This document shows positions 9,420 to 28,517 of a DNA stretch of 28,517 nt, in pieces. Position 1 is the stretch's first letter. Each line of letters opens with the position of its first letter. A program made the position numbers and the translations under genes. The stretch is from a virus. Location of the stretch: positions 1 through 28,517 of IMG/VR virus record IMGVR_UViG_3300012988_000035. The stretch is one strand, 5' to 3'. The notes under the pieces were generated by a model. It made no database searches, was not told the DNA's origin, and worked only from the letters and a program-made list of their open reading frames with translations.

Positions 9420-9640
9420 GGCTGGTCGCGGTCAATATCGCGGCGAAGGCTCCTTATTTGCGCGACGTTGACCTTGATCAGCTTGAGGACGTGATCCTCG
9501 CAGTGGGTCTACTGGAAGCAATACGCGGTGCATCCCGGCTCGGTTTTGAACTTGAGTTCCGGGACCTGACACCCAAGGAATTCAACCTGGTTTCATATCT
9601 GTCTGCTGAAGTTGATAAGATGAGGTTACCCAATGGCTGA
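9413..9640 (+). CDS. Tail assembly chaperone, frameshift extension (gpT-like part of gpGT)
   Basis: A frame open from 9401 to the stop at 9638-9640, in the -1 frame relative to the preceding gene. It has no good start: the first TTG at 9458 lacks a ribosome site. Through -1 slippage at 9407-9413 it adds 75 residues beginning ALRLVAVNIAAKAPYL to the first 100 residues of the short form, giving a fusion of about 175 residues. The sequence is helical, with an acidic middle (DVDLDQLEDVILAVG). The stop overlaps the tape measure start by eight bases. By analogy with lambda gpGT, the extension recruits tail tube subunits to the tape measure. Confidence 0.75.
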   Translation, partial: ALRLVAVNIAAKAPYLRDVDLDQLEDVILAVGLLEAIRGASRLGFELEFRDLTPKEFNLVSYLSAEVDKMRLPNG

Positions 9641-11876: not shown

Positions 11877-11879
11877 TGA

Positions 11880-12689
11880 ATGTCGAATCTAAAACTGCGA
11901 CGGAATGCTCGAATAGCCGACAATAATCATCTTGATTCAGCCACGGTTGTGGCTCCTGAGCATGCGTCGTTCCCGTTTACCAATGCATTGAACTTTCGGC
12001 AACGTGGCCGCGTCTGGAAGCCTGACGACAAAGATTTCGTCATCGAAATTGACCTGCTCGCCAATAAGCAGTGCAGCTTTTTTGCGATATTTGGGGAAAT
12101 CGATAAATATCTCAGGATTTCAGATCAGGCTGTCATCACGATCAAAGCCAATATGATCAACCTTTTCACTGGCGGGGAACCGTTTACAACGACTGCAACG
12201 GTGACTGATAAGGGTGTGTTTGCAGATCTGACTGACGATGATAACCCAACCGGCATGCAATACCGCTACTGGCAGATAACGATCGAGGATCTTTTAAACC
12301 CAGACGACATCGAAATCAGTGCCATCTTTTTGGGCGATCATATAGACTTTCAGTTCAATGCCAAGCAGCAGTTTGAATTCAGCTGGGTTGATCTTACGAG
12401 GAGGGCAAGCAGTGACTCCGGAGTTGTCTACACTGTTCGAAAAAATCAATACGCTCTATTCAGTGCTATGGGCTTCAGCTACCTTAACACTGATGATCGC
12501 CGCAAGATTCAGTCGTCCACCGAGACCCTCGGACTCTCGACGCCGTTCATATTCATCCTCGATCCGCTCCAAATAGCGTTCGAATGGGAATTCGGCACGA
12601 CGCTCTGCTATTTCGATTCGCTTCCCCAGTTCACCCATGCATACCAAAACAAATTCAACGTAGCCTTTCAACTGCGGGAGGTTGTCTAG
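11880..12689 (+). CDS. Putative distal tail / tail-tip protein
   Basis: A 269-residue beta-rich protein, first gene after the tape measure. It begins with segments such as FPFTNALNFRQRGRVWKP, a Pro-x-x-N-A and Arg-Trp pattern seen in early strands of tail-tip and fibre-attachment proteins. It ends with a strand-rich region (FIFILDPLQIAF, then NKFNVAFQLREVV). In siphophages this slot encodes the distal tail ring to which hub and fibres attach. No catalytic motif is visible. Confidence 0.5.
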   Translation: MSNLKLRRNARIADNNHLDSATVVAPEHASFPFTNALNFRQRGRVWKPDDKDFVIEIDLLANKQCSFFAIFGEIDKYLRISDQAVITIKANMINLFTGGEPFTTTATVTDKGVFADLTDDDNPTGMQYRYWQITIEDLLNPDDIEISAIFLGDHIDFQFNAKQQFEFSWVDLTRRASSDSGVVYTVRKNQYALFSAMGFSYLNTDDRRKIQSSTETLGLSTPFIFILDPLQIAFEWEFGTTLCYFDSLPQFTHAYQNKFNVAFQLREVV

Positions 12690-12690
12690 T

Positions 12691-13158
12691 ATGGCTTTCA
12701 ACCAATATCCAGACGATCTTGCCGTTGTCATATGCACTGGCGGGGACAATCTCATCGACCTCGGCCCGGTTGATCCTGACACTGACCAGCAGCTTGAGAT
12801 ATTCGGCCTTCAGATATTCAAGCGCGGCCTTCAGCCCCTGGTCAGGATGCGAGTCAATGCCTACGTCGCAGGAATCCTGGAAGGCACGAGCGAGGACGTT
12901 GTGGTGGGGACGATTGAGGACCTTTACCCATCGACTAATAACTTTTATGGCTGGGTTCGATTCACCTTTGAGCCGCGGTTCAACCTCAATGCTGGAACCG
13001 ACACGCGTTTCGAGCTCGAACTGGAAAATTATGCATATACCGCTGACACGGTCTTCATAGGCGGCGTTTTGGATTGGCCTGTAACCATGGCCTATAACGA
13101 AAACCCAGGTGCAGCAAGTTCGGCTCCGATGGCCATTGAACTTTACGGAGCGATTTGA
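12691..13158 (+). CDS. Tail-tip associated beta protein
   Basis: A 155-residue protein. The ATG at 12691 is preferred because GGGAGG lies nine bases upstream. An upstream TTG at 12682 would add three residues and has no ribosome site. The protein is strand-rich (LAVVICTGG, LQPLVRMRVNAYVAG, RFELELENYAY) with an acidic surface. It lies between the distal tail-like and hub-like genes, and its stop abuts the next start (TGAATG). It is probably a tail-tip component. The family is not recognised. Confidence 0.55.
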   Translation: MAFNQYPDDLAVVICTGGDNLIDLGPVDPDTDQQLEIFGLQIFKRGLQPLVRMRVNAYVAGILEGTSEDVVVGTIEDLYPSTNNFYGWVRFTFEPRFNLNAGTDTRFELELENYAYTADTVFIGGVLDWPVTMAYNENPGAASSAPMAIELYGAI

Positions 13159-17692: not shown

Positions 17693-17723
17693 AATCCTTT
17701 CGCCCTCGGGAGGGGGAAAAATT

Positions 17724-17831
17724 ATGAACGACAAAAAGCCAAAAGACTGGAAAAAACCACCGAAAGAAAAACCCGCTGATTCGGAATACCCGACGCGTGA
17801 GGAAAAAAAGAAAGGAAAGAAAAAGAAATGA
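17724..17831 (+). CDS. Lysine-rich 35-residue micro-protein coupled to Acb2-like gene
   Basis: The ATG at 17724 follows a strong GGGAGGGGG. The product has 35 residues, about 40 percent Lys, with many Asp, Glu and Pro (NDKKPKDWKKPPKEKPADSE, then EEKKKGKKKK). It is likely disordered. The same open frame extends upstream to 17616 inside the fibre gene, but no ribosome site is found there. Its stop overlaps the ATG of the next gene (ATGA), so the two are translationally coupled. The function is unknown; a nucleic-acid or acidic-surface binder is conceivable. Confidence 0.55.
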   Translation: MNDKKPKDWKKPPKEKPADSEYPTREEKKKGKKKK

Positions 17832-18064
17832 GTCGATTCGATTACGTTCGCTATGATGAAACTGCGCAGGTCATCCAGAATGCCGCAAAGGACATTTGCT
17901 CGAATCTCGAAAATCTCATCGATGACAATCTTCGGGACGGGCGATCTAAATCATTGGCCCTGACCAAACTCGAAGAGACTTACATGTGGATTGGCAAAGC
18001 AATCCGCGATGATCAGGTTCAGAATCGAGCCGCTGAACTTCAGGAAGAGCGTTTAAACGCATGA
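17828..18064 (+). CDS. acb2: Acb2-like cyclic-nucleotide sponge (anti-CBASS)
   Basis: A 78-residue, all-helical protein. The core (residues about 37-60) reads DGRSKSLALTKLEE then TYMWIGKAIRDD. The Arg-x-Lys-Ser-Leu-Ala-Leu-Thr-x-Leu-Glu-Glu...Trp-x-x-x-Ala-Ile-Arg pattern is the hallmark of the Acb2 family, small phage proteins that form hexamers and sequester cyclic di- and tri-nucleotides made by CBASS (and bind Thoeris signals in some cases). Length and helix-turn-helix hairpin shape fit. It is coupled to the lysine-rich gene upstream and followed by a 10-bp hairpin. The family call is from the motif; ligand range cannot be read from the sequence. Confidence 0.75.
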   Translation: MSRFDYVRYDETAQVIQNAAKDICSNLENLIDDNLRDGRSKSLALTKLEETYMWIGKAIRDDQVQNRAAELQEERLNA

Positions 18065-18070
18065 TCAAAA

Positions 18071-18100
18071 GAGCCGGGGAACTTATCCCGTCCTCGGCTC
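18071..18100 (+). terminator. 10-bp hairpin after Acb2-like gene
   Basis: GAGCCGGGGA at 18071-18080 pairs with TCCTCGGCTC at 18091-18100 (one G-T pair, 10-base loop). No T-run follows, so it may be a Rho-assisted terminator or an mRNA 3' end stabiliser. It separates the structural operon from the haem lipoprotein block. Confidence 0.45.
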
Positions 18101-18121
18101 ATCCCACCCCGCGAATGTTGC

Positions 18122-18151
18122 TTGCATTTTGTTCACTCATTGTCCGATAAT
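18122..18151 (+). promoter_or_regulatory. Candidate promoter of the haem lipoprotein block
   Basis: TTGCAT at 18122-18127, an 18-base spacer and GATAAT at 18146-18151. The -10 box is a five of six match and the -35 box matches only at TTG. It lies in the only intergenic gap of this region and would start transcripts near 18158, about 30 bases before the ATG at 18187. Confidence 0.4.
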
Positions 18152-18186
18152 CAAAAGATTCAATCACTTCAGTCATGGGTTATTTT

Positions 18187-19665
18187 ATGAAGACTATGTG
18201 CATTCCAGCCATGCTATGTCTTTTTGCGGCCTTCGGCTGTCAGCAGCCCGTGAACAAAACTGTTCAGGTTGAGGTGCCGGTCCCCCAACTGCCTATCGAA
18301 CCAGCTCCCCCTGTCGAGCCCGGCAAACCTGGGTTTTTGCGTTTCGATGAGATTGAACAGTATGCCGATCGCGACATCAAAACCCTGAACGCGACCGATC
18401 GTAGTCGGACCCGTTACCTTCTGACATGTGACCTTTATGATCAGGGCATCAAGGACCTTTCAAACGTCCTGGCCGGGATCAACAAAGGGATCAATATGGT
18501 CTCGACTGAGCGGCTCATCGCCTACGTCAATACCATCGATGAGGACGTAGGGTGCGTGCACCGCATCAATCTTGACGATATCGGCATGACCAATGAGGAA
18601 TGGCAGAAGTTTGAACGCTCGAACGTCCTCCCCTTCATTTCAAACTCGGTGCGCGGGCGTACGCTGAGAGCTCTGACAGGCACCAATCAGCCGATGGTTT
18701 ACGCGTCCAGCTTTTTCCTGACTGTGATGCAGGCCGACCAGGTCTCGATCGGAAACCAGCTTTACTACGATCTGACCGAGCAGCCGCTGAACGACACCGA
18801 GTTTTTGGCCAAACTTGGCATAGACCTTCAAAAGGAATTCAATGAGGAGAGCCCCGCGTGCGCGGCCGGGGGGAAGTCGCAAATTGCGTTAGGAAAGCCG
18901 AGGCTCATATGCATCCTCGATACCACGGCCGATGGATTTTTGATGTTCACGGGCGATGTTTCCCTGGCTAAAAACGATTCCATCCAGCAAAACCCGTTTT
19001 TCAAAAACATGGCCCTGATTCCCGGGTTCGCGACTAACAAGGTATTCAATTTTGTCGCAAGCGAATGGATCTTTAGTCTGCCAAACGGACTGATGACAGG
19101 CTATCGATTGTCAAATGCCGGGGGAACAGCGGAAGTTATCGCGCCCACGAACGTCGTCATCGATATCGAGCAGGCGGGCAAGGGCCTGCCGCCAGATATC
19201 ACCCTCGGAGCATGCTCAAACTGCCATCATCAGGAATCGGGGATCTTTTTCAGAGATGAGGTTTTCTCAATCGTCCAAAACAATGGGAATTTTAATGCAG
19301 CCGAAAAGGCATTGGCTGACACTTTCTATCGCGCGGATAAGTTTCAGGCCAAGCGTGCCGTGGCCAACCGCGAGCATACCGACGCTCTTAAACGCATTGG
19401 CGTGAGCACGTTTGCCGAAGATCCGGTTGTAACTGAACTGATTCAACCGCTCCGGGGCGAGCTCACTTTGGATAAGGTCGCAGGCAAGGTTTTCCTGGAA
19501 CCCGATGAATTCCGCATACGCCTGGCCGGGACTAATCTGAGTAAGGTCCTATTCGGGGCCCTGCTTGAACCGGGCGGGGTTGTGGCGATCAGTGATTTCA
19601 GCCGGGGCTTTAGAACGCTTGCCGATGAGCTGAGACTTTTCCGTGATGCAGGCCAATTGGATTAA
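18187..19665 (+). CDS. c-type cytochrome lipoprotein of unknown role
   Basis: A 492-residue protein from the ATG at 18187; an in-frame ATG at 18175 would add four residues, and neither has a clear ribosome site. It opens with a short basic and hydrophobic signal (MKTMCIPAMLCLFAAFGC), the last Cys being a likely lipidation site, followed by a Pro-rich linker. About residues 50-130 contain ATDRSRTRYLLTCDLYDQG and later RINLDDIG, a pattern I associate with an uncharacterised family of large bacterial cytochromes. A single haem-binding CSNCH occurs at about residues 343-347, followed by another His. The mature protein would sit in the periplasm on a membrane. It is followed nine bases before a second haem lipoprotein. 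No phage role is known. Confidence 0.65.
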   Translation: MKTMCIPAMLCLFAAFGCQQPVNKTVQVEVPVPQLPIEPAPPVEPGKPGFLRFDEIEQYADRDIKTLNATDRSRTRYLLTCDLYDQGIKDLSNVLAGINKGINMVSTERLIAYVNTIDEDVGCVHRINLDDIGMTNEEWQKFERSNVLPFISNSVRGRTLRALTGTNQPMVYASSFFLTVMQADQVSIGNQLYYDLTEQPLNDTEFLAKLGIDLQKEFNEESPACAAGGKSQIALGKPRLICILDTTADGFLMFTGDVSLAKNDSIQQNPFFKNMALIPGFATNKVFNFVASEWIFSLPNGLMTGYRLSNAGGTAEVIAPTNVVIDIEQAGKGLPPDITLGACSNCHHQESGIFFRDEVFSIVQNNGNFNAAEKALADTFYRADKFQAKRAVANREHTDALKRIGVSTFAEDPVVTELIQPLRGELTLDKVAGKVFLEPDEFRIRLAGTNLSKVLFGALLEPGGVVAISDFSRGFRTLADELRLFRDAGQLD

Positions 19666-19683
19666 TCGATAGGAGTGGAGACG

Positions 19684-20001
19684 ATGAAATTTCTGCTGGC
19701 AATCGTTTTTCTGATCGTTTCCTGCGGGGGTCCTGCACCGCAGCAGCAGGCGCAACAGCCTATTCCCGGACCAACTCCGACGCCCACGCCTCAGCCAGGC
19801 GGGAAAACCAGCTTCGCTGATGCTCAGTCGATAATGAAAAATTACTGTAACGATTGTCATGCAACGGCGGCCTTCACCAAAACCGAGCAGGCGCTGATAG
19901 CGTCCTCGGCAAAGTCGCGCGTGCAGAATTCCACGATGCCCCCACCATATGCCTCTCAAATGAGTGCGGGGGACAAAACGAAGTTCCTTGGTTTTTTTTA
20001 A
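19684..20001 (+). CDS. Small monohaem cytochrome c lipoprotein
   Basis: A 105-residue protein. The ATG at 19684 has AGGAG eight bases upstream, and an upstream GTG at 19675 is less likely. A lipoprotein signal ends at FLIVSC (Cys14). Then comes a Gln/Pro/Thr-rich spacer to about residue 38. The remaining domain has CNDCH at residues 55-59 and STMPPPY with Met85, followed by a short helix. His from CxxCH and Met before Pro-Pro are the usual axial ligands of class I cytochromes c, so this looks like a complete small electron carrier tethered to a membrane. It lies directly after the larger haem lipoprotein, which suggests they work together. Confidence 0.75.
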   Translation: MKFLLAIVFLIVSCGGPAPQQQAQQPIPGPTPTPTPQPGGKTSFADAQSIMKNYCNDCHATAAFTKTEQALIASSAKSRVQNSTMPPPYASQMSAGDKTKFLGFF

Positions 20002-20013
20002 GGATCGAATGAA

Positions 20014-20217
20014 GTGAGCGCATATCACGATTATAACGATCACATTTCAGCGCGTGTTCCAAAGCGCCGAAAGGTCGACCTTGAATTTGATTCGGTCCAA
20101 TCCCGCGGCGGTCATTTCCTTTTCCACATGGATGGGAAACTGATCTGCGTTATCGACAAAAACTATTTCGACCAGCGCCAAAGTGATTTTTTTGAAGCGA
20201 TATCGGAACCAACGTAA
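20014..20217 (+). CDS. Small protein of unknown function
   Basis: A 67-residue protein with a GTG start at 20014, supported by AAGGA nine bases upstream. It carries a basic patch (RVPKRRKVDLEFD) followed by strands (GGHFLFHMDGKLICVIDKN) and an acidic end. There is no signal peptide, so unlike its two upstream neighbours it stays in the cytoplasm. It is followed by a strong terminator. Its role is unknown; it could regulate the block or be an unrelated phage gene. Confidence 0.5.
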   Translation: MSAYHDYNDHISARVPKRRKVDLEFDSVQSRGGHFLFHMDGKLICVIDKNYFDQRQSDFFEAISEPT

Positions 20218-20292
20218 TATGCTTTTCTGTGCGAGAGTGTAGGGACATCGAGCTTTGTTTTCATAACTCCTGGAAGTATAGAAAAAGGCGAA

Positions 20293-20325
20293 GGGCGCGG
20301 CATGGATCATGCAGCGTCCTTTTTT
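20293..20325 (+). terminator. Strong rho-independent terminator
   Basis: GGGCGC-G-GCATG at 20293-20304 pairs with CATGC-A-GCGTCC at 20308-20319 (one G-T pair, one G-A mismatch, three-base loop), followed by six T (20320-20325). It ends the haem lipoprotein block only 32 bases before the lysis genes, so the latter need read-through or antitermination. Confidence 0.75.
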
Positions 20326-20356
20326 ATTACACAATTTTTTTCGCGATGGAGGCAAG

Positions 20357-20680
20357 ATGGACGCTGAGTTACTCCAGCATTTGAAAGACTTCAGTCCCTT
20401 GACACTCGGGGTTTTGGTCCTGCTCTATGGATTGAAAAGACTGCCTTACTACGCGCTAAAAAAAATGGAGCTTCAGCATCAGGAGAAGGACAAGATCTTA
20501 GTTCATCTTAATGAACAGCTCGATGAACTGAAAGCGGACTTGGAAAAAATGAAAAGCGATTTGTCCGAATACCGGCAAAAGTTTTTTGATTTGCAGGTCG
20601 AGCATGCCAGCCTCAAGGCCGAGCATGAACAGCTACGGGGGGTTCTGAAAGCATATGAACAGAAAAAAGCTAAGCGCTGA
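20357..20680 (+). CDS. Membrane-anchored coiled-coil lysis protein (holin- or spanin-like)
   Basis: A 107-residue protein. The ATG at 20357 has GGAGG four bases upstream; the open frame upstream (from 20309) lacks this. Residues about 14-34 form one hydrophobic segment (LTLGVLVLLYGLKRLPYY). The rest is a charged coiled coil (about 38-105). One N-terminal membrane helix plus a long coiled coil fits an Rz-like inner-membrane spanin, or one of the small phage proteins often labelled as holin-associated. It overlaps the endolysin gene by 26 bases, which supports a lysis role. No nested Rz1-like lipoprotein frame was found. Confidence 0.55.
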   Translation: MDAELLQHLKDFSPLTLGVLVLLYGLKRLPYYALKKMELQHQEKDKILVHLNEQLDELKADLEKMKSDLSEYRQKFFDLQVEHASLKAEHEQLRGVLKAYEQKKAKR

Positions 20681-21044
20681 TTTCTTTGAAGACGAGTTCT
20701 GGTCGCCCGACACGAATATGGCAAAAATGAGTGCGGAGTTTATTTATAAACTGCAAAAGCTCAGGACCGTCGTAGGCGTCCCGTTTCTGATTGCACCAGG
20801 GGGTGGGTATAGGACAGCCGAGTATAACGCCAGGATGCAGGGATCCAGCGGTTCAAAGCACATGGAAGGGATAGCAGTCGACGTCGATCATACTCGATGG
20901 GACGGCGCGATAAGGTTTCAATTCATATCTGCAGCGTGCGCACTTGGGTTTTCGGTTGGGATATATCCCAAGCATTTTCACATCGACACTCGTCAGGGCC
21001 AGAAGGTGCTCTGGGTAAGCCTTTATAAGAAGGCGAAAACCTAG
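20655..21044 (+). CDS. Endolysin, peptidase M15 family
   Basis: A 129-residue protein with the M15 zinc peptidase signature. It contains GGYRTAEYN, then SKHMEGIAVDVD with His69 and Asp76, and KHFHID with His109. These are the expected zinc ligands of the VanY / L-alanyl-D-glutamate type peptidases. It has no signal peptide, so it needs a holin to reach the wall. It cuts peptide cross-links or stems of peptidoglycan at the end of infection. The start lies within the previous gene, and the stop overlaps the end of a small - strand gene by three bases. Confidence 0.85.
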   Translation: MNRKKLSADFFEDEFWSPDTNMAKMSAEFIYKLQKLRTVVGVPFLIAPGGGYRTAEYNARMQGSSGSKHMEGIAVDVDHTRWDGAIRFQFISAACALGFSVGIYPKHFHIDTRQGQKVLWVSLYKKAKT

Positions 21045-21160
21045 TCCCTGATGAGTTTTTTAGAAGCTGGCACGATGATACTGGGAAGTATCCTATCGAC
21101 CAGCTTTTTCTTCAGAAAATTCATATCAAGGATTGGCCCGGGCTCTTTTTTGCTTTCCAT
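21041..21160 (-). CDS. Small 39-residue basic protein of unknown function
   Basis: On the - strand, an ATG (bases 21158-21160) is preceded by GGAG at an eight-base spacing. The 39-residue product starts MESKKEPGPILDMNFLKKKL and ends IIVPASKKLIRD. It is basic and partly helical. The strong ribosome site and a candidate promoter just upstream favour a real gene. It is antisense to the surrounding + strand genes and lies inside a pair of inverted repeats. It may instead reflect regulatory DNA. Confidence 0.45.
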   Translation of the reverse strand: MESKKEPGPILDMNFLKKKLVDRILPSIIVPASKKLIRD

Positions 21161-21178
21161 GTTCATAGCTCCTATGCT
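21150..21178 (+). promoter_or_regulatory. Weak candidate promoter for the YceI gene
   Basis: TTGCTT at 21150-21155, a 17-base spacer and TATGCT at 21173-21178. Both boxes are partial matches. A transcript starting near 21185 would lack the left inverted repeat, leaving the YceI ribosome site free. Confidence 0.25.
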
Positions 21179-21206
21179 CAAATAGCCGGAAATCAACCTA
21201 TCTCAA
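21179..21206 (-). promoter_or_regulatory. Candidate promoter of the 39-residue - strand gene
   Basis: On the - strand, TTGAGA (bases 21201-21206), a 16-base spacer and TATTTG (21179-21184). The -35 box is a five of six match, the -10 box weaker. It sits 19 bases before the start codon. Confidence 0.3.
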
Positions 21207-21220
21207 TTCAGGGACTAAGC

Positions 21221-21712
21221 ATGTTTAAACAGGTTTTCACATTGATTTCCATCGCAATGTTATTGGCAAGCGGTTTTGTCATGGCTGCAGGCAAATGCGA
21301 AATCACAGGTCACGCCGTGAAAGGGACGCTCGATTTCAGCGTTGCTGGCTGCATCATCGAGGGGAAGCCAAAGATCGAAGGCGGCAAGGTCACTGGGGAA
21401 TTCACCGTCGACACAACGAAACTTGACGGCGGCGTTCGCAATCAGCATATGCACGAAAAATATCTGGAAACAAAGTCATTCCCAAAGGCCATCCTCAAGC
21501 TTGACCCTATGCCGGAAGCCGGCGGCCCGTTCACAGGAAAGCTGAGCCTTCATGGCAATGAAAAAGAAATCAAGGGCGTGGCAGAAAAGTCCAGCATCGG
21601 CTACGGGTTCAAATTCGAAATCAATCGGAAGGAATTTGGCATTGCTGAAGTCAGTTATAAAGACATTCTTATCGGTGATTCTCTTAGCGTCTCTGGCACT
21701 ATTGATAAGTGA
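21221..21712 (+). CDS. YceI-family periplasmic protein
   Basis: A 163-residue protein with a Sec signal peptide (about residues 1-22, ending FVMAAG) and a beta-rich mature part. The block RNQHMHEKYLETKSFPKAIL and later FTGKLSLHGNEKEIKG and INRKEFGIAE follow the YceI pattern (R-x-x-H-x-x-x-x-x-F-x-x-x-x-x-P, then G-x-L-x-x-x-G-x-x-K, then R-x-x-F-G). YceI lipocalin-like barrels bind polyisoprenoids and quinone-like lipids in the periplasm. The gene has AGGGA six bases before its ATG, inside the right inverted repeat. Its end overlaps the next gene by 71 bases. The mature part is shorter than typical. Confidence 0.8.
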   Translation: MFKQVFTLISIAMLLASGFVMAAGKCEITGHAVKGTLDFSVAGCIIEGKPKIEGGKVTGEFTVDTTKLDGGVRNQHMHEKYLETKSFPKAILKLDPMPEAGGPFTGKLSLHGNEKEIKGVAEKSSIGYGFKFEINRKEFGIAEVSYKDILIGDSLSVSGTIDK

Positions 21713-22712
21713 TAGAGCGTTCTGTTATCCTCAGACTATCGTCCATGGCTATTCAAATTGCGCAACGTGCCACCTCACTGGGGATGGCGGGGATGTCTTG
21801 AATAACTATGGACGGGCCATGACCGAGGAGTTCATGGCATCGTTCGCGCGCGAGGGAGAAGCGCGGGAATTCTTTGGCCTCGGTGAAGCTGACTTTCTGG
21901 ACCTTGGGATCGATTACAGATCAATGAGGATACAGGATGCAGGGACGGGCGAAAGCGATCAATTCCACATGTATACAGTGGGTCAATTGGCTCTTAGACA
22001 TGATGGCCTTAGTTTGTTTGGCAGTGCTGGATATTTTGGGAGAGACCGAGAATATCAGACGCGAAACTACGGAGTGAATTATCATGTCGATATTGACACT
22101 CATAGCGTGGATTTCAAGCTCGGTTATTGGATGCCTGTGGTTGGCATTGGGCTCAATAATCATGATCTTTCGATTAAAAAAGCCCAAGGATTCGGACGGG
22201 GACAGGAAAAATTCATAACCCAGGTCACTTGGCTCAATCGCTGGTTTGAGCTCAAAGCGCTGCAGACCCGATCCGACATCGAGATAGTGAAAGGCCCCGA
22301 CAATTTCCCAAAGAACGAAGCGGACGATAAGCCTGAGTATCTCTTGGATCTGAAGCTGAAACGAATCGAGAAGTTTGAATTCGGCCTGCATACCCGGGTC
22401 CAGGATGGGGTCCAAACTCTTATCGGTTACTCAACAAGGATATCCAAGGGCCATGCATATATCTTTCTGCAGCAGGATATCGATCAGAGTAAAGGAATCT
22501 TAACCGACTACGGGAGGTTTGGATTCTACCCGGTGCGCGGCCTTGACCTTTATTTTGAGCAGGATCAGATAAAAACTTCGCTGAATCCTGAAATTACTCG
22601 TCGGTCTTTAGGTTTTTCATGGATGATTCGCCCAAGGTTGGAATATGAAGGGACAGGGATGCAATGGGGACAAAGGCGGTTCTACTCGACAAGCCTGAAG
22701 CTCTGGCTCTGA
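21642..22712 (+). CDS. Outer-membrane beta-barrel with N-terminal c-type haem motif
   Basis: The start is a TTG at 21642, with GGAAGGAA seven bases upstream. From there a signal peptide follows directly (LLKSVIKTFLSVILLASLAL, then a cut near FCYP). An earlier ATG at 21552 would put a long non-signal leader in front. Then comes GYSNCATCH (CATCH, residues 40-44), TGDGGDVLNNYGRAMTEE, and an array of alternating strands to the aromatic end TSLKLWL. A haem c motif followed by Gly-Gly and YGR, then a barrel, is a layout I recall from Gram-negative bacteria using outer-membrane redox proteins. At 356 residues the barrel would be of medium size. It overlaps YceI by 71 bases, so they are probably co-translated. 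Confidence 0.65.
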   Translation: MLKSVIKTFLSVILLASLALLISDRAFCYPQTIVHGYSNCATCHLTGDGGDVLNNYGRAMTEEFMASFAREGEAREFFGLGEADFLDLGIDYRSMRIQDAGTGESDQFHMYTVGQLALRHDGLSLFGSAGYFGRDREYQTRNYGVNYHVDIDTHSVDFKLGYWMPVVGIGLNNHDLSIKKAQGFGRGQEKFITQVTWLNRWFELKALQTRSDIEIVKGPDNFPKNEADDKPEYLLDLKLKRIEKFEFGLHTRVQDGVQTLIGYSTRISKGHAYIFLQQDIDQSKGILTDYGRFGFYPVRGLDLYFEQDQIKTSLNPEITRRSLGFSWMIRPRLEYEGTGMQWGQRRFYSTSLKLWL

Positions 22713-23035
22713 AAGAATTCGTTTCCGAAAAGTATTTGCAGAATCAGATCATCGAGTATCTGAATGCGAATACCGATGGGATGTTTTGGCAAAACGATAG
22801 CATCGGCATCAAAGGTCGCAAAAGGCAAAACCGTTACCGACCAAACGGTGTAGCCGATATCCTCGGCGTCATCGATGGCCATTCAATTGCGATCGAAGTC
22901 AAAGCACCAAAGGGAAAGATCCTTCAGAGTCAAATGACCTTCGCGGAAAAATTCCGACGCTCTGGGGGATCTTATTATGTTGTACGGTCTTTTGAAGACA
23001 TTTCAGAACTGGTTAAAATCAATGGCTGGATTTGA
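22664..23035 (+). CDS. VRR-NUC domain nuclease
   Basis: A 123-residue protein with the PD-(D/E)xK nuclease core. It has YLQNQIIEYL at the start, then a basic stretch, PNGVADILGVI (Asp65), and IAIEVKAP (Glu78, Lys80), followed by QSQMTFAEKFRRSGGSYYVV. These match VRR-NUC enzymes, found in phages as small stand-alone nucleases that cut branched DNA. A GGGAT precedes the ATG. It overlaps the beta-barrel gene by 49 bases and is the only nuclease visible in the window. It may serve in recombination, packaging or repair with the RecT-like protein of the facing operon. Confidence 0.8.
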   Translation: MGTKAVLLDKPEALALKEFVSEKYLQNQIIEYLNANTDGMFWQNDSIGIKGRKRQNRYRPNGVADILGVIDGHSIAIEVKAPKGKILQSQMTFAEKFRRSGGSYYVVRSFEDISELVKINGWI

Positions 23036-23216
23036 GACAGATAAAAAAATCCTCGATTCCCAGTTTTCCTTGCTGGACAGCATGTCGACTGACCAGCTTG
23101 AGGACCTGACCAACGGCTATGAATCATTCAAGCTGAAGGTCCTGGGGCACCTGCATGATACGACTGACAAGCTCGAGTTCCTATACCAGCTGGTCAGGCT
23201 AAGACAAAAGCAATGA
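22977..23216 (+). CDS. Small helical protein of unknown function
   Basis: A 79-residue protein if the ATG at 22977 is used, with GGGGGA seven bases upstream. An in-frame ATG at 23022 would give 64 residues with less overlap of the nuclease gene but no ribosome site. The shared part is helical and acidic (STDQLEDLTNGYESFKLKVL, then KLEFLYQLVRLRQKQ). I do not recognise it. It is the last + strand gene before the convergent - strand operon, 18 bases away. Confidence 0.5.
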   Translation: MLYGLLKTFQNWLKSMAGFETDKKILDSQFSLLDSMSTDQLEDLTNGYESFKLKVLGHLHDTTDKLEFLYQLVRLRQKQ

Positions 23217-23234
23217 GAGAGAGTCAATCCGCTT

Positions 23235-23510
23235 TCATAGGGGGGATTCTTTTCCCCCCTCTCTCTTAAACTCCCTAAGACGTCGATTCATTTCTTTATT
23301 CACATCGTCTGGATGCATACCGCGAAAGTCTTTAAGATTCATCATGCCGTCGATTCCCGTAATAAGGATCGCCCTTGCACTGACGGGGTCGGGACAATTC
23401 ATGACTTGATCAGCAGCGATGGCAACGATCGCACTAAATGTCGCCGCAGGATCGCGCTTAGCCAAAGTATCGACCGTTGTTTTGATGATATTCAGGATTT
23501 CGTCATTCAT
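23235..23510 (-). CDS. Small protein of unknown function at end of recombination operon
   Basis: A 91-residue protein whose start overlaps the RecT stop (ATGA). It is helical, with an alanine-rich middle (AATFSAIVAIAADQV) and a basic end (NKEMNRRLREFKREGGKE). No membrane segment or motif is evident. It is the last gene of the leftward operon, and its final codons form the G-run of the hairpin at 23239-23260. Confidence 0.55.
   Translation of the reverse strand: MNDEILNIIKTTVDTLAKRDPAATFSAIVAIAADQVMNCPDPVSARAILITGIDGMMNLKDFRGMHPDDVNKEMNRRLREFKREGGKESPL
23239..23260. terminator. Hairpin at the convergence of the two operons
   Basis: AGGGGGG at 23239-23245 pairs with CCCCCCT at 23254-23260 around an eight-base loop. 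Flanking GAGAGAG and CTCTCTC runs can lengthen the stem. There is no T-run on either strand, so efficiency is uncertain. The position between converging genes fits a two-way terminator. Confidence 0.4.
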
Positions 23511-24652
23511 GTTTTATCCATCCCGTTCACATGTGCTGACAGCTTTTTATAGAATGTCAAAAGGTCTGAAAGGCCGGCGGTCTCCATGACAGACGGCGGC
23601 GTGCCGGTTTTTTCAAGTATGATGCCATTGGTCAATTTGTTCGACCTAATCAGCGCTTTCAGCTTTTCCAGAATTTCAAGGCGCTGCTGTTCATCGGCGT
23701 CAGGTTCCGGCTGTTCAGATTGCGCTGCTGGCGGTTCTGGTTCATAGGTCGAAAGAACCTGCCATACAGCTATCAGCTGCTGATAGGCCAGGACCTTTAT
23801 ATCCTCTAGCGACATGAGACCAAGCGCAGTTAGAACCTGGAATTCCTGAACGCCGGACTGCATCATGTCGGCTATTTTCTTTTCGATCCTGTCCAGCAGG
23901 TCAAAGCGGGCATGTTCTTGTGCCTTTTTTTCCTCTGATCGCGCAATGTCCTGCATAGCCAGCCTTGCATCGGCGGGCGGCGTCACGTCAAGGACCGTCC
24001 CCTTTTCAGCCTGTTCCTTAATTTCGTCGACTGTGTCGCTGGAACCGCCGAATGCATGAGCACCGGTCGCTCGGATAAGGAATGTCGCAGCGCGCTTTTC
24101 CAGCATATAGTCTGGCATCGTCACCCATTTGCTTCCCTTTTTTTCTGTCCAGCCTTCCTTTTTTGCCATGGCAAGGCTGACTTCGCTTCCCTCAGCTGTC
24201 GAACCGTCTGGCCTTGTCCCCACTGCTATGCAGGTTCGGGTTCCATCTTCAATGGATCCAGTTTTCACGTAGTCAATTTTCGTGAAAATTTTCAGTTCAA
24301 GCACACGGGAAATCATGAACTCTGCATACCAACCGTGTCGGCCGTGGACGAAATAGCCGCCTTGCAGGACCTCGGGCAGGCCGATTCCCATCCGTTCGGC
24401 CTTGAACGACATGATATAGATCGACCGAATGTCGCCCTTGAATGCATCGGGGACCAGTCCGCTCTGAACAGTTGAAAGGAAATAAGCCCTTTGAAGGTGC
24501 CGCGTTTCCCTTTCGTCCATACCATAGACTTCGGCAATCAGTTTGATTTCATCCCTGGTGGCTTGTATTTCAGCCATGGAACCGAATGGCGAACTCGATC
24601 TCTGTGGCGCTGCTGCTGCACTGGCGCTGCTGCGAATCATATTTGTCTGCAT
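23507..24652 (-). CDS. RecT-like single-strand annealing protein
   Basis: A 381-residue protein. About residues 40-230 follow the RecT pattern: helical start (MSFKAERMGIGLPEVLQGGY), GRHGWYAEFMISRVLELKIF, then the strand pair ending CIAVGTRPDG. Next comes the diagnostic W-x-x-MPDYMLEKRAATFLIRA segment, and AFGGSSDTVDEI. The remaining 150 residues are Ala/Glu/Gln-rich and less conserved. RecT proteins bind ssDNA and anneal strands for recombination-dependent replication. AAGGA ten bases upstream supports the start. It follows the Gp157 gene by three bases. No partner exonuclease (RecE, lambda Exo or YqaJ type) is found in the window. Confidence 0.8.
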   Translation of the reverse strand: MQTNMIRSSASAAAAPQRSSSPFGSMAEIQATRDEIKLIAEVYGMDERETRHLQRAYFLSTVQSGLVPDAFKGDIRSIYIMSFKAERMGIGLPEVLQGGYFVHGRHGWYAEFMISRVLELKIFTKIDYVKTGSIEDGTRTCIAVGTRPDGSTAEGSEVSLAMAKKEGWTEKKGSKWVTMPDYMLEKRAATFLIRATGAHAFGGSSDTVDEIKEQAEKGTVLDVTPPADARLAMQDIARSEEKKAQEHARFDLLDRIEKKIADMMQSGVQEFQVLTALGLMSLEDIKVLAYQQLIAVWQVLSTYEPEPPAAQSEQPEPDADEQQRLEILEKLKALIRSNKLTNGIILEKTGTPPSVMETAGLSDLLTFYKKLSAHVNGMDKT

Positions 24653-24655
24653 TGT

Positions 24656-25237
24656 TCATATATCCTTTAAAACTGAAAACCGTATGCCCGGTCTTTTTGC
24701 AATTGAAGCGAACTCCCGCACTTTTTCAGCCATGGCCTTGTCAGTTTCCGACTCCGGGGCCGATTTCAATATGCGTTTGATGTCTGTTTTTTTCCATTCA
24801 TAAGTCGTCTTGATGAGATCGTGGAAGTGAATGCTGTGGTGGGCAGCAGGTTCAGACAGCTTCAGGTCGACGTATTCAGAGTATTGCATTCGGACCTTAT
24901 ACTGATGGCCGACGAATTTCTCAAATCCATTGTTTTCCATTGCGAACATCAGGTGTGATTCCAGCCTTTCGCGCTGGTTATCAATAGTCTTTCGCGCGGT
25001 CTTATATTCGTTTTCCTTGCGCTTCAATTCATCGGAGATAGTTTCCATGCGATCCATGAGATACTTGTAGGAATCAATTTTGACTTTCCCCTGCTCTAAA
25101 AGATCGGGGACGTCGTCAAGATTGACTTCCAGCATGGCCTCATCGGCCAGGCACAGGGCCTGCAAAAGTTCATTCAGTGTTTTTGGTTTGACGATGGTCC
25201 GCTCTGGCGGCTCGGGGGATTGATCGATGCTGTCCAT
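24656..25237 (-). CDS. Siphovirus Gp157-family protein
   Basis: A 193-residue protein. The ATG ending at 25237 has AGGGA seven bases upstream, better than the TTG at 25252. The N-terminal half is a long coiled coil (KIDSYKYLMDRMETISDELK, then KEYNEYKTARKTI-like charged helix). The C-terminal half carries a short strand region (FEKFVGHQYKVRMQYS). A final segment has KKTDIKRILKSAPE and GIRFSVLKD, the usual end of the Gp157 family, where a Lys-x-x-hydrophobic-K pattern ends in a beta hairpin. These proteins occur next to phage recombination genes. Gp157 was first described in streptococcal phages, and its role is unclear. Confidence 0.7.
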   Translation of the reverse strand: MDSIDQSPEPPERTIVKPKTLNELLQALCLADEAMLEVNLDDVPDLLEQGKVKIDSYKYLMDRMETISDELKRKENEYKTARKTIDNQRERLESHLMFAMENNGFEKFVGHQYKVRMQYSEYVDLKLSEPAAHHSIHFHDLIKTTYEWKKTDIKRILKSAPESETDKAMAEKVREFASIAKRPGIRFSVLKDI

Positions 25238-25244
25238 TTGGGTT

Positions 25245-25291
25245 TCCCTCAATCAAAAATTGATGAGGGAACTATAGCCTAATTTTTAGGC
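25245..25291 (-). promoter_or_regulatory. Candidate promoter and two palindromic operators before Gp157
   Basis: On the - strand a TATAGT box lies at 25271-25276. Next to it upstream is the perfect palindrome GCCTAA-TTT-TTAGGC (25277-25291). Downstream, TCCCTCA (25245-25251) and TGAGGGA (25264-25270) form a second palindrome over the expected transcription start, which also contains the Gp157 ribosome site. No good -35 box is present, so an activator may be needed. Confidence 0.45.
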
Positions 25292-25323
25292 AAAATCCAG
25301 CAAAAGCAGGCGGGGAGCGGGGT

Positions 25324-25560
25324 TTAGGTTTTAGGGCTCCTCGGTTTTCTCATTCCCTCAACCAAGATCGGAACGGGGACGTCGAAAAGCCAGGCGCTTT
25401 TTGTGCCACACTGAATGCACTGATATCTCACAAGATCAGATTTCGGATCTGCAAACCAGGATTCTGTGTTGCACAGTTCCAATCCGCAACCAGGGCAATA
25501 GCAGAAAGTTGTTTGGTTCCGATTGTATTTTTTCACTAGCCAGCGGGCGATAGTTTCCAT
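25324..25560 (-). CDS. Small zinc-ribbon protein
   Basis: A 78-residue protein with CYCPGCGLEL (Cys22, Cys25) and QCIQCGTKS (Cys48, Cys51), a four-cysteine zinc ribbon. The N-terminal helix is basic (RWLVKKYNRNQ) and the tail after the ribbon ends in a basic KPRSPKT. Such proteins in phage early operons often bind nucleic acid or other proteins. The start abuts the stop of the preceding gene (TGAATG). The partner is unknown. Confidence 0.55.
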   Translation of the reverse strand: METIARWLVKKYNRNQTTFCYCPGCGLELCNTESWFADPKSDLVRYQCIQCGTKSAWLFDVPVPILVEGMRKPRSPKT

Positions 25561-25767
25561 TCATTTCCCCATCCCAGCATTGGTGATCCGACCGCAAGCA
25601 AGCCATGACCCGGCCCTGCCCGTCCGCAATTCCTGAACGACATACGTATTGCCGTGCTGTCTCAGCTTTTTAGGAAAACGGACCCAGGCCTTTTCGTGTC
25701 GGGCGCGGATCCGTTTCGTTTTTGGATCATATACGATTTCGACTCTGGCGTCGGTTTTGATGGTCAT
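25561..25767 (-). CDS. Small basic protein of unknown function
   Basis: A 68-residue, strongly basic, beta-rich protein (RVEIVYDPKTKRIRARHEKA, WVRFPKKLR, TYVVQELRTG). The ATGA start overlap with the preceding gene and a direct junction to the next gene place it in the Rep operon. The basic surface is consistent with nucleic-acid binding, but no motif is recognised. Confidence 0.5.
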   Translation of the reverse strand: MTIKTDARVEIVYDPKTKRIRARHEKAWVRFPKKLRQHGNTYVVQELRTGRAGSWLACGRITNAGMGK

Positions 25768-26246
25768 GATTTGTCCTGCAATTCATTCAGGTATTGCGAC
25801 ACAGATCTCCCGTCGTCAATAAAAAAGTGATCCTCCCCATACATTTGAGTCAGTGCTTCATCCCTGCGTATATAGGCATTTTCAAAAATATCCACGGATT
25901 GGCAGATTGTTTGCATTGGGAGTTGAGGGTTCTGCCAACTAGAAGCAAACTGGATGGATCTCATGAAATCCAAGTGAATTTCGCAGAGAATATTTTCCAT
26001 GGCTTCCCCAGGAAATCTGCTTAGAGCCAATTCATAGTTGTATTCAATCCTTGCCAGCAATCTTTGATATGCATTAGCATTTAACCATGAAGTCCCAACT
26101 TCGTCGGCAAATTTTCCTATCCCAACAATTCGCTCGGCGGTTGGTTCATTCTTGAAATAGAAACTTTCATCCAAATGCTCCTTCGGGCATTCGGGCCATA
26201 GTTTCAAAGCTTCCTGCTGGATTTTGTTTTTCGTTTTCGCGTTCAT
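25764..26246 (-). CDS. Protein of unknown function downstream of rep
   Basis: A 160-residue, mostly helical protein. The ATG ending at 26246 has AAGGA five bases upstream and starts one base after the rep stop. A TTG at 26267 would overlap rep by 20 bases and has no ribosome site. The middle has aromatic-rich helices (YQRLLARIEYNYELALSRF, HLDFMRSIQFASSW). No membrane segment, metal site or catalytic motif is evident. Its stop overlaps the next start as ATGA. Confidence 0.5.
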   Translation of the reverse strand: MNAKTKNKIQQEALKLWPECPKEHLDESFYFKNEPTAERIVGIGKFADEVGTSWLNANAYQRLLARIEYNYELALSRFPGEAMENILCEIHLDFMRSIQFASSWQNPQLPMQTICQSVDIFENAYIRRDEALTQMYGEDHFFIDDGRSVSQYLNELQDKS

Positions 26247-26247
26247 G

Positions 26248-27039
26248 TCAATCCTTGACCAACTCAAGATGGCGATTTTTGAAATTGTCTGCAGCCATCG
26301 GGTCGTGCTTCCGCAATTCCGAAAGAACTTCGTCCATTGTCTTTCTAATATCCGCCGTCAGTTGTTGCATTTCCTGTCGCAGTTTTTCATTGCCCAGCTG
26401 CATTTCTTCTTTCAATGCTTGGAATTGCATCTCTCTCTCCTTTTGTTCCCCAATCCATTTTTCGGATTCCCTAGCGTGTGCTTCAATCATGTTCTGTATC
26501 TGGTCTTTGAGGGATTTTATTTCGCTATTGTCGTTACTATTTTCATGTCGACGTTTTGCGGATATCGCGGCGCTAAGTCTTTTCACCGATAGCAGATTTG
26601 GCAGACGGGTATCCGTCAAACCCCTTGCTGATGCCCATTTTGAATAAGCTTCCCTCAATTCAGTTTCGAGTTCTATACTCTCAAACTCCCATATTCCAGA
26701 TAAATATTTCGCCCTATTTGCCACTGCAGGGTTTATCCGACAGGCCCTACGAGTTTTTACGTCGATAAAAATTATCAGGTTTAATTCTGCGAGACGCTTA
26801 AGATGCTTATTCACTTCGCTTTTATCGATTTTGAAACGTTCCTGGATAAATTGACTCACGGAAGCGTCTTCAACCTCAAAGCAGTTGCCCATGTCCATTT
26901 TGAAAATCATCTCCATGAATATGGACATTTCAGTCGGCTTGAGCACTAACGGTAGAATGACGAACAGGTAAGGGTTTGGTCGATAAAAAATAGGGATCGG
27001 CTGAATATTATTTTTTTGGTGCGATGTGCTGGATGCCAT
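26248..27039 (-). CDS. Replication-initiator-like winged-helix protein with coiled-coil tail
   Basis: A 263-residue protein in two parts. About residues 20-130 have an alpha/beta layout ending in a winged helix: VSQFIQERFKIDKSEVNKHL, KRLAELNLIIFIDV, then RRACRINPAVANRAKYL. The recognition helix followed by a wing and a terminal Ile-Asn-Pro is typical of plasmid and phage replication proteins such as the RepL type. About residues 150-260 are a charged coiled coil. It lies first in a leftward operon next to the iteron-like repeats at 27190-27225, supporting an origin-binding role. A transcriptional regulator is the alternative. GGAG eleven bases upstream supports the start. Confidence 0.55.
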   Translation of the reverse strand: MASSTSHQKNNIQPIPIFYRPNPYLFVILPLVLKPTEMSIFMEMIFKMDMGNCFEVEDASVSQFIQERFKIDKSEVNKHLKRLAELNLIIFIDVKTRRACRINPAVANRAKYLSGIWEFESIELETELREAYSKWASARGLTDTRLPNLLSVKRLSAAISAKRRHENSNDNSEIKSLKDQIQNMIEAHARESEKWIGEQKEREMQFQALKEEMQLGNEKLRQEMQQLTADIRKTMDEVLSELRKHDPMAADNFKNRHLELVKD

Positions 27040-27119
27040 GCTATAGACCGCTCCGAGAGTTACTGATTATTTTTTGGTCAGGGACATTTTCTTAACGGAT
27101 GTTCCGATATATGTGAAGT

Positions 27120-27150
27120 CCGGTCTTGTCAGAGGCCGGTCTTTTTTTTT
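27120..27150 (+). terminator. Rho-independent terminator upstream of rep, + strand
   Basis: CCGGTC at 27120-27125 pairs with GGCCGG at 27134-27139 (one G-T pair, eight-base loop), followed by nine T at 27142-27150. No + strand gene precedes it, which leaves a small RNA or a leader of the - strand transcript as its user. Confidence 0.5.
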
Positions 27151-27189
27151 ACCCATTGCCAGATCGTGCTATTTTTTCGGCCATAAAGG

Positions 27190-27225
27190 CGAGGTGGAAA
27201 TCCTCCTCGACCGAGGTGGAAATCC
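27190..27225. repeat. Two iteron-like direct repeats 22 bp apart
   Basis: CGAGGTGGAAATCC occurs exactly at 27190-27203 and 27212-27225. Start-to-start spacing is 22 bp, two helical turns. Each copy is followed by a CT-rich stretch that can pair with its GAGG. This is the usual look of initiator binding sites near a rep gene. Confidence 0.55.
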
Positions 27226-27393
27226 CCTCCGCCATATGCGGTGAAAGCCGCGCGCACCAAGGCCTCATTTTTACCCTTCTTAAGACATCTATGTATCAAG
27301 GGCTTTTGTCCTCTCCTCAGGTCGATTACGGCGCATTTATTTTTCAGCGCACGCGATCCCATCGCTTGGTTTTTTTGTTCAGAAACTAAACAG

Positions 27394-27409
27394 GCATTCT
27401 ACGGAATGC
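27394..27409. repeat. Short perfect hairpin in control region
   Basis: GCATTC and GAATGC form a six-base-pair stem around the loop TACG. No T-run follows. It may be part of an origin or a binding site. Confidence 0.35.
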
Positions 27410-27634
27410 TATTTACGGCAATCGATGCAAACGAAACGCGCGCTGCAAGCCGCGTTGATGATCATAATACTCCTACCAAAACTCTGCATCCGTTGGTATA
27501 TAAAGGTTTCAAGGTTTTTAAAAAGTCGTCCAAAAAACAGGAAAATTCTGATCCATGAATTGCAAGTACATGATATCAGCGAACTATTTAATTTTTCTTA
27601 GGGTGTTATCATCACACGTGAAATGAGGTTTTTT

Positions 27635-28027
27635 ATGGATTCACAAGCTACGTTTACCGTCACATTGACACAGATTTGGCAAAAGCTGGTTGATATCGAG
27701 TCGCTGCTGGAAAAACAAAAAAATAACCCCTCAACGACGACCGACGCCAAACCAACCGATCTTGGAAAAGACAGCGGGATTTCGGAAGCGGTCACTTTCT
27801 GCGTTGCCCACGATTGGATATTCAAGCGCGCGAACAACGGCCAGTATTCCCATACGATCGCCAATAAGGCCGCAGCAGCATTCCTCTCAAGGCATGGCCT
27901 TAGCGATCGCCAGCTGCTCTCCGAAGAACTGGGTAAGCGTCGGTCGTCGTTGAAAGGTTTGGTGAATGTTTACGATGGGGTATTCGAGGATCTATTCCGG
28001 GATTTCGTAGTCAATCGCGTTGATTGA
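27635..28027 (+). CDS. Protein of unknown function, first + strand gene right of the control region
   Basis: A 130-residue protein. The ATG at 27635 has GAGG six bases upstream and is preferred to the ATG at 27623, whose sequence forms part of that ribosome site. The N-terminus is helical (TQIWQKLVDIESLLEKQ), followed by a Thr/Pro-rich linker. A folded domain then follows with ISEAVTFCVAHDWIFKRANN and LSDRQLLSEELGKRRSSL, which may include a small helix-turn-helix. No family is recognised. Being divergent from rep, it may be an early regulator. Confidence 0.5.
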   Translation: MDSQATFTVTLTQIWQKLVDIESLLEKQKNNPSTTTDAKPTDLGKDSGISEAVTFCVAHDWIFKRANNGQYSHTIANKAAAAFLSRHGLSDRQLLSEELGKRRSSLKGLVNVYDGVFEDLFRDFVVNRVD

Positions 28028-28048
28028 AAGACGTTCCGCTGAGCTATC

Positions 28049-28088
28049 GACGCCGTTCGGCGTCTTGCCGCTCACCGTCTGCAACGGT
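28049..28088. repeat. Tandem hairpins after the unknown gene
   Basis: GACGCC-GTTC-GGCGTC at 28049-28064 and ACCGT-CTGCA-ACGGT at 28074-28088. The second is followed by CTTT. Together they may end the upstream transcript weakly or form an RNA element. Confidence 0.35.
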
Positions 28089-28141
28089 CTTTGAATCTGG
28101 ATTGACGTTTTTTCCCCAGGGATCTAATGTCCGGACTGAAA

Positions 28142-28158
28142 TTTGTTAATTAACCAAA
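28142..28158. promoter_or_regulatory. Palindrome, candidate operator
   Basis: The sequence is TTTGTTAATTAACCAAA, with TTTG and CAAA in inverted orientation around an AT-rich core that includes the palindrome GTTAATTAAC. It lies 65 bases before the start of the next gene and could be a repressor or initiator site. Confidence 0.35.
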
Positions 28159-28178
28159 GCAATCACAAGCCTATCGGT

Positions 28179-28207
28179 CGGGAATCGGTTCGTTTCCCGC
28201 CTTTTTT
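28179..28207 (+). terminator. Rho-independent terminator or attenuator
   Basis: CGGGAA at 28179-28184 pairs with TTCCCG at 28194-28199 (nine-base loop), followed by CC and six T (28202-28207). It ends just before the ribosome site of the next gene. It either ends the upstream transcript or attenuates the leader of the next gene. Confidence 0.6.
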
Positions 28208-28222
28208 GAGGAAACGTGCCAA

Positions 28223-28517
28223 ATGAAAACCCCGACGCAGCAGCACCTCGAGTTTGTCCGCGACATTGAGGACGCCGTGACTGATCTGATTCAGTGCAAT
28301 GTGAAGGTCACCAAGATTTACCAAGTCACGGAAAAGGCCGACCGGGCCATTTACGACCTGACCAACTACGTCAACAGGTTCGTGGAAGCCGGGTATTGGG
28401 ACCTGATTGCCCGTCTGGCAGAGGCATACCTCAAAGTCGGCCAGGCACCGGCCTGTCTGACCAAAGCGCTTGAGCAGTCCCCGCAGAGCAGGGCTATACC
28501 CACGGCAAAACAGCTTA
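28223..28517 (+). CDS. Partial gene of unknown function (3' end outside window)
   Basis: An ATG at 28223 with GAGGA ten bases upstream opens a frame that runs to the window end, giving the first 98 residues. They are helical (EFVRDIEDAVTDLIQC, then KADRAIYDLTNYVNRFVEAG and LIARLAEAYLKVG). The only clear point is good codon use and a plausible start. If the genome is circular or permuted, it may lead towards packaging genes, but nothing in the visible part shows that. Confidence 0.5.
   Translation, partial: MKTPTQQHLEFVRDIEDAVTDLIQCNVKVTKIYQVTEKADRAIYDLTNYVNRFVEAGYWDLIARLAEAYLKVGQAPACLTKALEQSPQSRAIPTAKQL

Follow-up and report, generated by a model that had tools for sequence, protein, structure and literature searches.

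A pair of tandem palindromes precedes the gene of a Rep-like winged-helix protein in a phage genome of ~35 kb, and such pairs recur upstream of the corresponding genes in related phages, in synteny and at a position unique in the contig. Comparative sequence data support the view that they are a conserved cis element that would belong to the Rep-like gene. With middling confidence, we consider the pair to be Rep's own binding site, which may serve as origin and/or autoregulatory operator in the manner of lambda O-ori or the BusR-operator.

Two tandem palindromes upstream of rep

The window, i.e. the whole stretch of DNA analysed, is a fragment of 28,517 bp that comprises an entire IMG/VR record and has no end repeats. 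A second contig, L002 (26,110 bp), matches window positions 16251-28517 at 99.93% over the compared part and positions 1-1091 at 95%. Together, window and L002 yield a circular map of ~34,950 bp (~34.95 kb) with a filling piece of 6,433 bases. This map is a composite of two strains.

CGAGGTGGAAATCC occurs in two exact 14-bp copies, at 27190-27203 and 27212-27225, with a start-to-start spacing of 22 bp, and the nearer copy starts 151 bp from the ATG (at 27039) of the winged-helix gene. The preliminary description, which had reported exact 14-bp repeats with 22-bp spacing about 150 bp before this gene, was accurate. It did not include that each copy, when read with its flanks, is part of an imperfect palindrome of ~20 bp. 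Palindrome 1 (27190..27209, no strand) reads CGAGGTGGAAATCCTCCTCG and matches in 8 of 10 base pairs. Palindrome 2 (27212..27231, no strand) reads CGAGGTGGAAATCCCCTCCG, is likewise imperfect and lies 22 bp from palindrome 1 on the same helix face. This confirms that the repeats are real and that they form a tandem palindrome pair. As a mere 14-mer, CGAGGTGGAAATCC is not very rare: with up to three mismatches it has 8 matches in the window compared to a shuffle mean of 3.35, and 4 of 100 shuffles reach 8. When the whole window was scanned blind for palindromes occurring as direct repeats of each other at a distance of 18-40 bp, the pair at 27190-27231 ranked first in the contig (score 25). This score was never reached when the 300-nt region upstream of rep was Markov-shuffled 500 times, and no other of the 189 300-nt tiles of the contig attained the score of the rep-upstream tile. 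Shuffling of the whole contig was less extreme, as the maximum scores of 30 shuffled windows ranged from 22 to 25 with three of them reaching 25, so that the strong evidence lies in the position of the pair and its recurrence in relatives. These three shuffles are the one point in favour of a chance repeat or an assembly artefact, a reading that appears already contradicted by the comparative data: L002 carries the same region at 99.93% identity with the same palindrome site, and like pairs recur in relatives and plasmids. It is hardly credible. GCC-rich short-unit repeats in L029 (~6807-6985) also score in the tandem-palindrome scan and were discarded as low-complexity look-alikes. Searches of Rfam and for tRNAs yielded no match.

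A winged-helix protein with a long coiled coil

Among the coding neighbours of the repeat pair, the nearest convincing one is the rep-like gene (26248..27039, minus strand). It encodes a 263 aa protein with an N-terminal winged helix, a long C-terminal coiled coil and the conserved tail RHLELVK. AF2 models (mean pLDDT 67 and 73, alignments of 7 sequences) comprise a winged helix and a long helix; in the model of the window protein, residues ~31-100 form the winged helix at pLDDT 80-93. The predicted structure thereby shows the fold class and bears out the winged-helix ORF that had been proposed at 26248-27039, here on the minus strand. The window protein matches the replication-initiation profile phrog_270 (E 8e-4) and is the only one among 11 family members to do so at E < 0.01. 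One of the 11 matches the O-like phrog_345 (E 0.022). Otherwise, the matches in Pfam, PHROGs and NCBIfam are to winged helices of a generic kind (HTH_5, MarR_2, transcriptional-regulator PHROGs), with no more than two of the 11 members matching any one of them, and PF05732 (RepL) does not match the window protein up to E 1. Foldseek gave no match at E 0.001 or better; MarR, ArsR and BusR chains were among its weaker matches. VIA-align yielded Z values up to 9.6 for assorted winged helices and singled out no function. No initiator-specific match was seen in these structure searches, an absence that carries no weight. By sequence, the window protein seems to resemble generic winged-helix regulators almost as much as RepL, and we infer its role as an initiator.

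A generic regulator winged helix would also suit a pure transcription switch. In such a switch, the protein would be an autorepressor or a regulator of the early operon, the palindromes its operator and the coiled coil a molecular ruler as in BusR, and replication would proceed via the host and RecT-type recombination or via an unrecognised gene. The BusR chains among the Foldseek matches point in the same direction: BusR is described as reading a bipartite motif separated by 22 bp via a tetrameric coiled coil (PMC8517857), and the ingredients of a BusR-like mechanism, a wHTH, a coiled coil and two phased sites, are all present here. We hold such a switch tentatively to be a real possibility. 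It is weakened by the lack of a second operator anywhere in the contigs and by the absence of any other initiator candidate in the window or the filling piece, where the larger ORFs gave no match to another initiator, a helicase, a primase or a polymerase.

Gene neighbourhood

Rep heads a leftward operon that contains, on the minus strand, the next gene (25764..26249; unknown function, with a homologue in G011 near the G011 rep), a Siphovirus Gp157/Gam-like protein (24656..25252) and a RecT-like single-strand annealing protein (23507..24652). The rightward gene block is ended by a protein with a VRR-NUC nuclease domain (22664-23035, plus strand). Across the intergenic region, a small divergent ORF of 134 aa (27623..28027, plus strand) has homologues in G011 and G016. 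It is followed by the 5' part of a conserved 176-aa ORF (28223..28517, plus strand) which is completed in L002 (7289-7819). The palindrome pair stands upstream of a rep promoter candidate, TTAAGA-N18-AATAAT (27066..27095, minus strand), that is weak and by itself not above chance.

Between rep and the palindromes, an intrinsic terminator-like hairpin with a T run (27120..27149, plus strand) points away from rep. Its AAAAAAAGACCG block (rep strand) is common to the window, G014, G016 and G018. An intrinsic terminator of this orientation, 60-105 nt upstream of rep, is found in the window, G010, G014/G015, G016 and G018; in G019, a palindrome itself together with its T run qualifies as terminator, and at this place none was found in G003, G005 and G011. 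The A-run/GACCG block of the terminator provides the most widely shared 10-mers of nine upstream regions (4/9). The orientation of the terminator had raised the idea of copy control by an antisense RNA, which was abandoned, as candidate antisense promoters were not consistently above background. Also given up was an AT-rich unwinding element at 27497..27576 (no strand): this is the 80-bp stretch with the lowest GC content of the contig (29%) and a possible unwinding region, the position of which is not kept in relatives.

Recurrence of the pair in related phages

The window Rep as a query finds only L002, and wider Rep searches in IMG/VR yielded no phages beyond those already found via TerL. 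TerL led to 6 loci; a TerL alignment yielded 112 relatives, from which the top 80 were retained, and 14 records were examined at length. Iterated profiles detected Rep homologues in 12 of these 14 records, 10 of them non-redundant; of the two others, G002 ends before the region and in G017 none was found. The homologues share the winged helix and the coiled coil, most have a tail like RHLxLV, and 5 of the 10 non-redundant phage Reps carry an EGGK-like C-terminal extension. Their identity to the window protein is merely 11-23%, so the homology link rests on profile scores, synteny and architecture.

In seven of nine testable non-redundant rep genes of terminase-synteny relatives, a tandem palindrome pair is located 110-195 nt upstream (for G011 and G014 measured from the start suggested by the family alignment, which falls ~60-75 nt within the longest ORF). 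Left out of the nine were G013 (190 nt upstream only), G001 (the window's Rep) and G015 (a near copy of G014). The pairs score 25 in the window, 28 in G011, 32 in G014 and 30 in each of G003, G016, G018 and G019; each is the best of its contig and was reached by 0/500 shuffles. The tandem test was failed by G005 (score 23; 22/500 shuffles) and G010 (score 22; 57/500 shuffles). In place of a tandem pair, G010 has one long near-perfect inverted repeat upstream of rep (L098 ~18900-18965). The score was designed after viewing L012, L014, L027, L029 and L031. G010, G011, G013 and G019 had no part in its design: among these, G011 and G019 pass and G010 fails, and the scan had detected the pairs of G011 and G019 before these records were inspected.

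Spacings in the seven phages are 21, 22, 31, 31, 31, 32 and 33 bp, which corresponds to about two or three helical turns. The palindrome letters differ between most lineages, and the closest Rep pair (G014, G018) shares them. Searched with up to three mismatches, the site patterns occur at no second place of the contig in 8/8 checked records that have a pair; the inverted repeat of G010 is likewise found nowhere else in its contig (9/9 records including G010). Similarity of the half-sites correlates with that of the winged-helix domain (r 0.74, permutation p 0.0015) and a little less well with that of the terminase (r 0.62, p 0.02), in a comparison of 7 phages that used half-sites set by hand and is driven mainly by one pair.

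Similar pairs in small plasmids

One relative, G019, carries beside its Rep/palindrome cassette a RepL gene (L109 12476-12916), the product of which, a second winged-helix protein, passes Pfam RepL with 29.4 bits (cut-off 20.3). No palindrome pair accompanies this gene (best score 20). With G019 RepL as tblastn query, 233 PLSDB plasmid records were obtained at E 0.05 or better, with ~33-43% identity among the matches listed. They include 1.5-kb E. coli plasmids whose single annotated gene is a 'replication protein' (CP098968.1). In 5/5 plasmids examined with RepL-like Reps, a tandem palindrome pair (score 28-32) with a distance of 21 bp is located ~49-74 nt upstream of rep. The Reps of the window and of L031 had no match in plasmid records. 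The five plasmids (L128, L129, L130, L131, L132) also share AAGATACAGAA upstream of the pair, as seen by eye in 5/5; it may be an origin element. It was dismissed as an element common to phages and plasmids, being absent from the phage upstream regions.

The plasmid pairs sit at the rep promoter with TTGACA or TTGACG beside them, and this location suits an operator, in agreement with the transcription switch considered above. By contrast, the phage pairs are placed 110-195 nt upstream of the start codon, in several cases past the terminator, and no recognisable conserved promoter was found at them.

The Reps themselves may be related. A C-terminal LxxIxGG[KR] tail is common to the plasmid RepL-like Reps and 5 of the 10 non-redundant phage Reps, and among 2493 ORFs it occurs in only six, all of them Reps (G015 included). 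The phage family profile matches G019 RepL at E 1e-5, an alignment of the five plasmid Reps at E 8.4e-5 and single plasmid Reps at 1.6e-4 to 2.3e-3; lambda and other controls give 0.1 or worse, the winged-helix controls CRP (E. coli) 2.5e-3, ArsR 5.7e-3 and MarR 1.4e-2. ArsR itself matches the plasmid Rep profile, and of the 11 single phage Reps, only that of the window falls below 1e-3 against this profile. Since winged-helix controls score this close and only one Rep is below 1e-3, the protein link between phage Rep and plasmid RepL is suggestive only. Better arguments than the profile link come from the tail motif and the palindrome pair that both groups have in common.

The plasmids also bear on the idea that the palindromes serve another factor, i.e. 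the protein encoded by the divergent 134-aa ORF or one from the host, or that they act in packaging (pac) or segregation. This would fit the intergenic location of the pair between divergent operons. However, the pair keeps its distance to rep in 7/9 phages, and small plasmids have a like pair upstream of their RepL-like genes, in one case with no other gene annotated. We consider a service to another factor to be decidedly improbable.

Genome map, lifestyle and host

Portal, major head, tape measure, endolysin and TerL genes are present, and the filling piece comprises the start of the portal gene, TerL and a weak TerS match. The assignment of window 7578-9107 as 'sheath' was not retained, since Pfam suggests a tail tube instead (PF18906, 25.8 bits, below the cut-off of 27). 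In G014 (L102 13264-14538), a DNA methylase gene (N6_N4_Mtase) directly precedes TerS. Proteins encoded in window 3115-13158, from the major head to past the tape measure, are 99.7-100% identical in G002 (L016/L017), with neighbours at ~80-88%. This mosaic identity may be a sign of recent recombination.

Closure by the second contig provided the circular map that the preliminary description had asked about, although the map is equally expected of a headful-packaged, circularly permuted phage and would fit this as well as a plasmid. G014 has identical ends of 127 bases and G010 shows a self-overlap of 834 bases (13 mismatches); thus, circular maps recur in this phage group. A switch of the cumulative GC skew near 27.2 kb, likewise envisaged, proved to have no diagnostic value: the skew of the circular map reaches its global minimum at 18.8 kb, and near 27-28.5 kb there is only a local low that coincides with the change of gene direction. 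GC skew was discarded as an origin marker, since it was uninformative in the window map, G014 and G010.

Could the phage persist as an extrachromosomal plasmid prophage using this replicon? The circular map would allow this, the RepL gene of G019 resembles that of tiny E. coli plasmids, and no integrase of the tyrosine family was found: PF00589, the family to which this search was directed, matched in 0/20 records, many of them fragments, including the window, in agreement with the earlier statement that no integrase is seen there. Neither an integrase nor a partition family matched among the 10 L002 proteins scanned. In addition, a TerL-bearing prophage is absent from 368 Bdellovibrionota genomes except for one contig and two weak partial matches. 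Against a plasmid prophage speak the virion and lysis genes, the lack of a ParA of the PF13614 type in 20/20 records (most of them fragments; this search covered PF13614 among partition types), the lack of a plasmid record with this Rep and the lack of a repressor match among the larger ORFs of window and filling piece, as had been noted for the window, too. Moreover, circular permutation is normal for headful phages, and a missing integrase is equally expected of a lytic phage. We regard a plasmid prophage as rather unlikely. The proposal that the element is kept as a plasmid finds no support: neither a ParA nor a plasmid record with this Rep nor a lysogen was seen. Its counterpart, a lytic phage with a plasmid-type initiator, gains in the part that concerns the initiator, from the pairs in 5/5 plasmids, the RepL gene of G019 and the lack of a match to another initiator.

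Bdellovibrionota are the probable, albeit unproven, host, as suggested by sequence matches. Among 84,980 genomes, the TerL profile matched one contig, in a Bdellovibrio MAG (44%); three of the 368 Bdellovibrionota genomes matched, two of them weakly. A Rep search in these 368 genomes was empty, which carries no weight. A 386-aa CxxCH protein of the phage has homologues in 150 of 290 Bdellovibrionota genomes, a count made in Bdellovibrionota only. CxxCH heme-c motif proteins are encoded at window 19675-20001 and 21552-22712 (plus strand); one of them is lipoprotein-like, and the 386-aa one is kept across the phage group.

A putative replication-control cassette

We propose that a ~35-kb phage has its replication-control cassette in this region, where the pair at 27190-27231 would be the cognate site of the winged-helix coiled-coil protein (26248-27039). 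One Rep dimer would occupy each palindrome, and the coiled coil would join two dimers on one helix face, because the spacing is always near a whole number of turns. Like the initiators of iteron plasmids, the Rep-palindrome complex would most likely mark the phage origin and control rep transcription. The terminator between rep and palindromes might keep transcription that starts near rep out of the site. We infer that Rep binds the palindromes, that the origin is located here and that Rep loads the host replisome.

If the pair is the binding site of Rep, initiator and origin would form a compact module that has changed its DNA recognition several times at nearly fixed geometry. Such modules would offer natural variants from which winged-helix specificity and incompatibility could be worked out, along with a small replicon candidate for Bdellovibrionota, probable but unproven as host, and a bridge between phage and minimal plasmid replication. 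In other respects, a phage origin beside its initiator gene is an ordinary idea. A bolder reading would see a hitherto undescribed replicon class, composed of a winged-helix coiled-coil initiator and a freely re-coded phased palindrome pair, that is common to a group of Bdellovibrionota-associated tailed phages and the smallest enterobacterial plasmids and would, in the phages, support an extrachromosomal plasmid-like state in a predatory bacterium; we give it little credence. Titles and abstract openings of the literature on Bdellovibrio phages, phage-plasmids, RepL and MG828, a body in which subscription journals are mostly uncovered, contain no description of this cassette.

Comparison with known systems

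Among the closest known systems is lambda O/ori. As a control, the same blind scan was run on lambda, where the ori iterons (39054-39095) share the top score (24) with five other sites, and the OL and OR operators stay below 24. This means that tandem palindromes of this kind can be an origin. Both systems have tandem imperfect palindromes (in lambda of 18 bp and 20-24 bp apart, in the window 22 bp) beside red-type recombination genes, and the lambda O protein has an N-terminal winged helix like the window Rep. The iteron-type arrangement of an initiator-like gene with adjacent direct repeats in helical register is found here with two copies, compared to four annotated in lambda; theta origins usually have four or more iterons. 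In contrast to the window with its two palindromes upstream of rep, the four lambda iterons are located inside the O gene. Furthermore, a relation in sequence to lambda O was not evident (hhalign E 0.61 when O alone was compared), and no P-like loader was found here.

With RepL replicons (Col(MG828) type, CP098968.1; PF05732), the phage cassette shares a winged helix followed by an LNPxF-like motif, the LxxIxGG[KR] tail in a part of the phage family and the tandem palindrome pair upstream of rep. It differs in the long coiled coil of the phage proteins, in the pair being farther upstream, in a profile match that is barely above unrelated winged helices and in the window protein having no Pfam RepL match. 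Extrachromosomal mycobacteriophages of the RepA type are reported to have a repA with a helix-turn-helix that is transcribed against the structural genes, with the origin presumed in or beside repA; unlike the phages investigated here, they carry parABS, and no repeats were identified there (PMC7157519).

BusR is reported to combine a wHTH and a coiled coil with two sites in fixed register on one DNA face (PMC8517857). It differs in its RCK_C effector domain and its function as a repressor, and the likeness is confined to the winged-helix level; by this precedent, tandem palindromes can equally be an operator. Both roles need not be separate: in pIGRK, the single protein RepR is reported to serve both origin and operator (PMC6854812).
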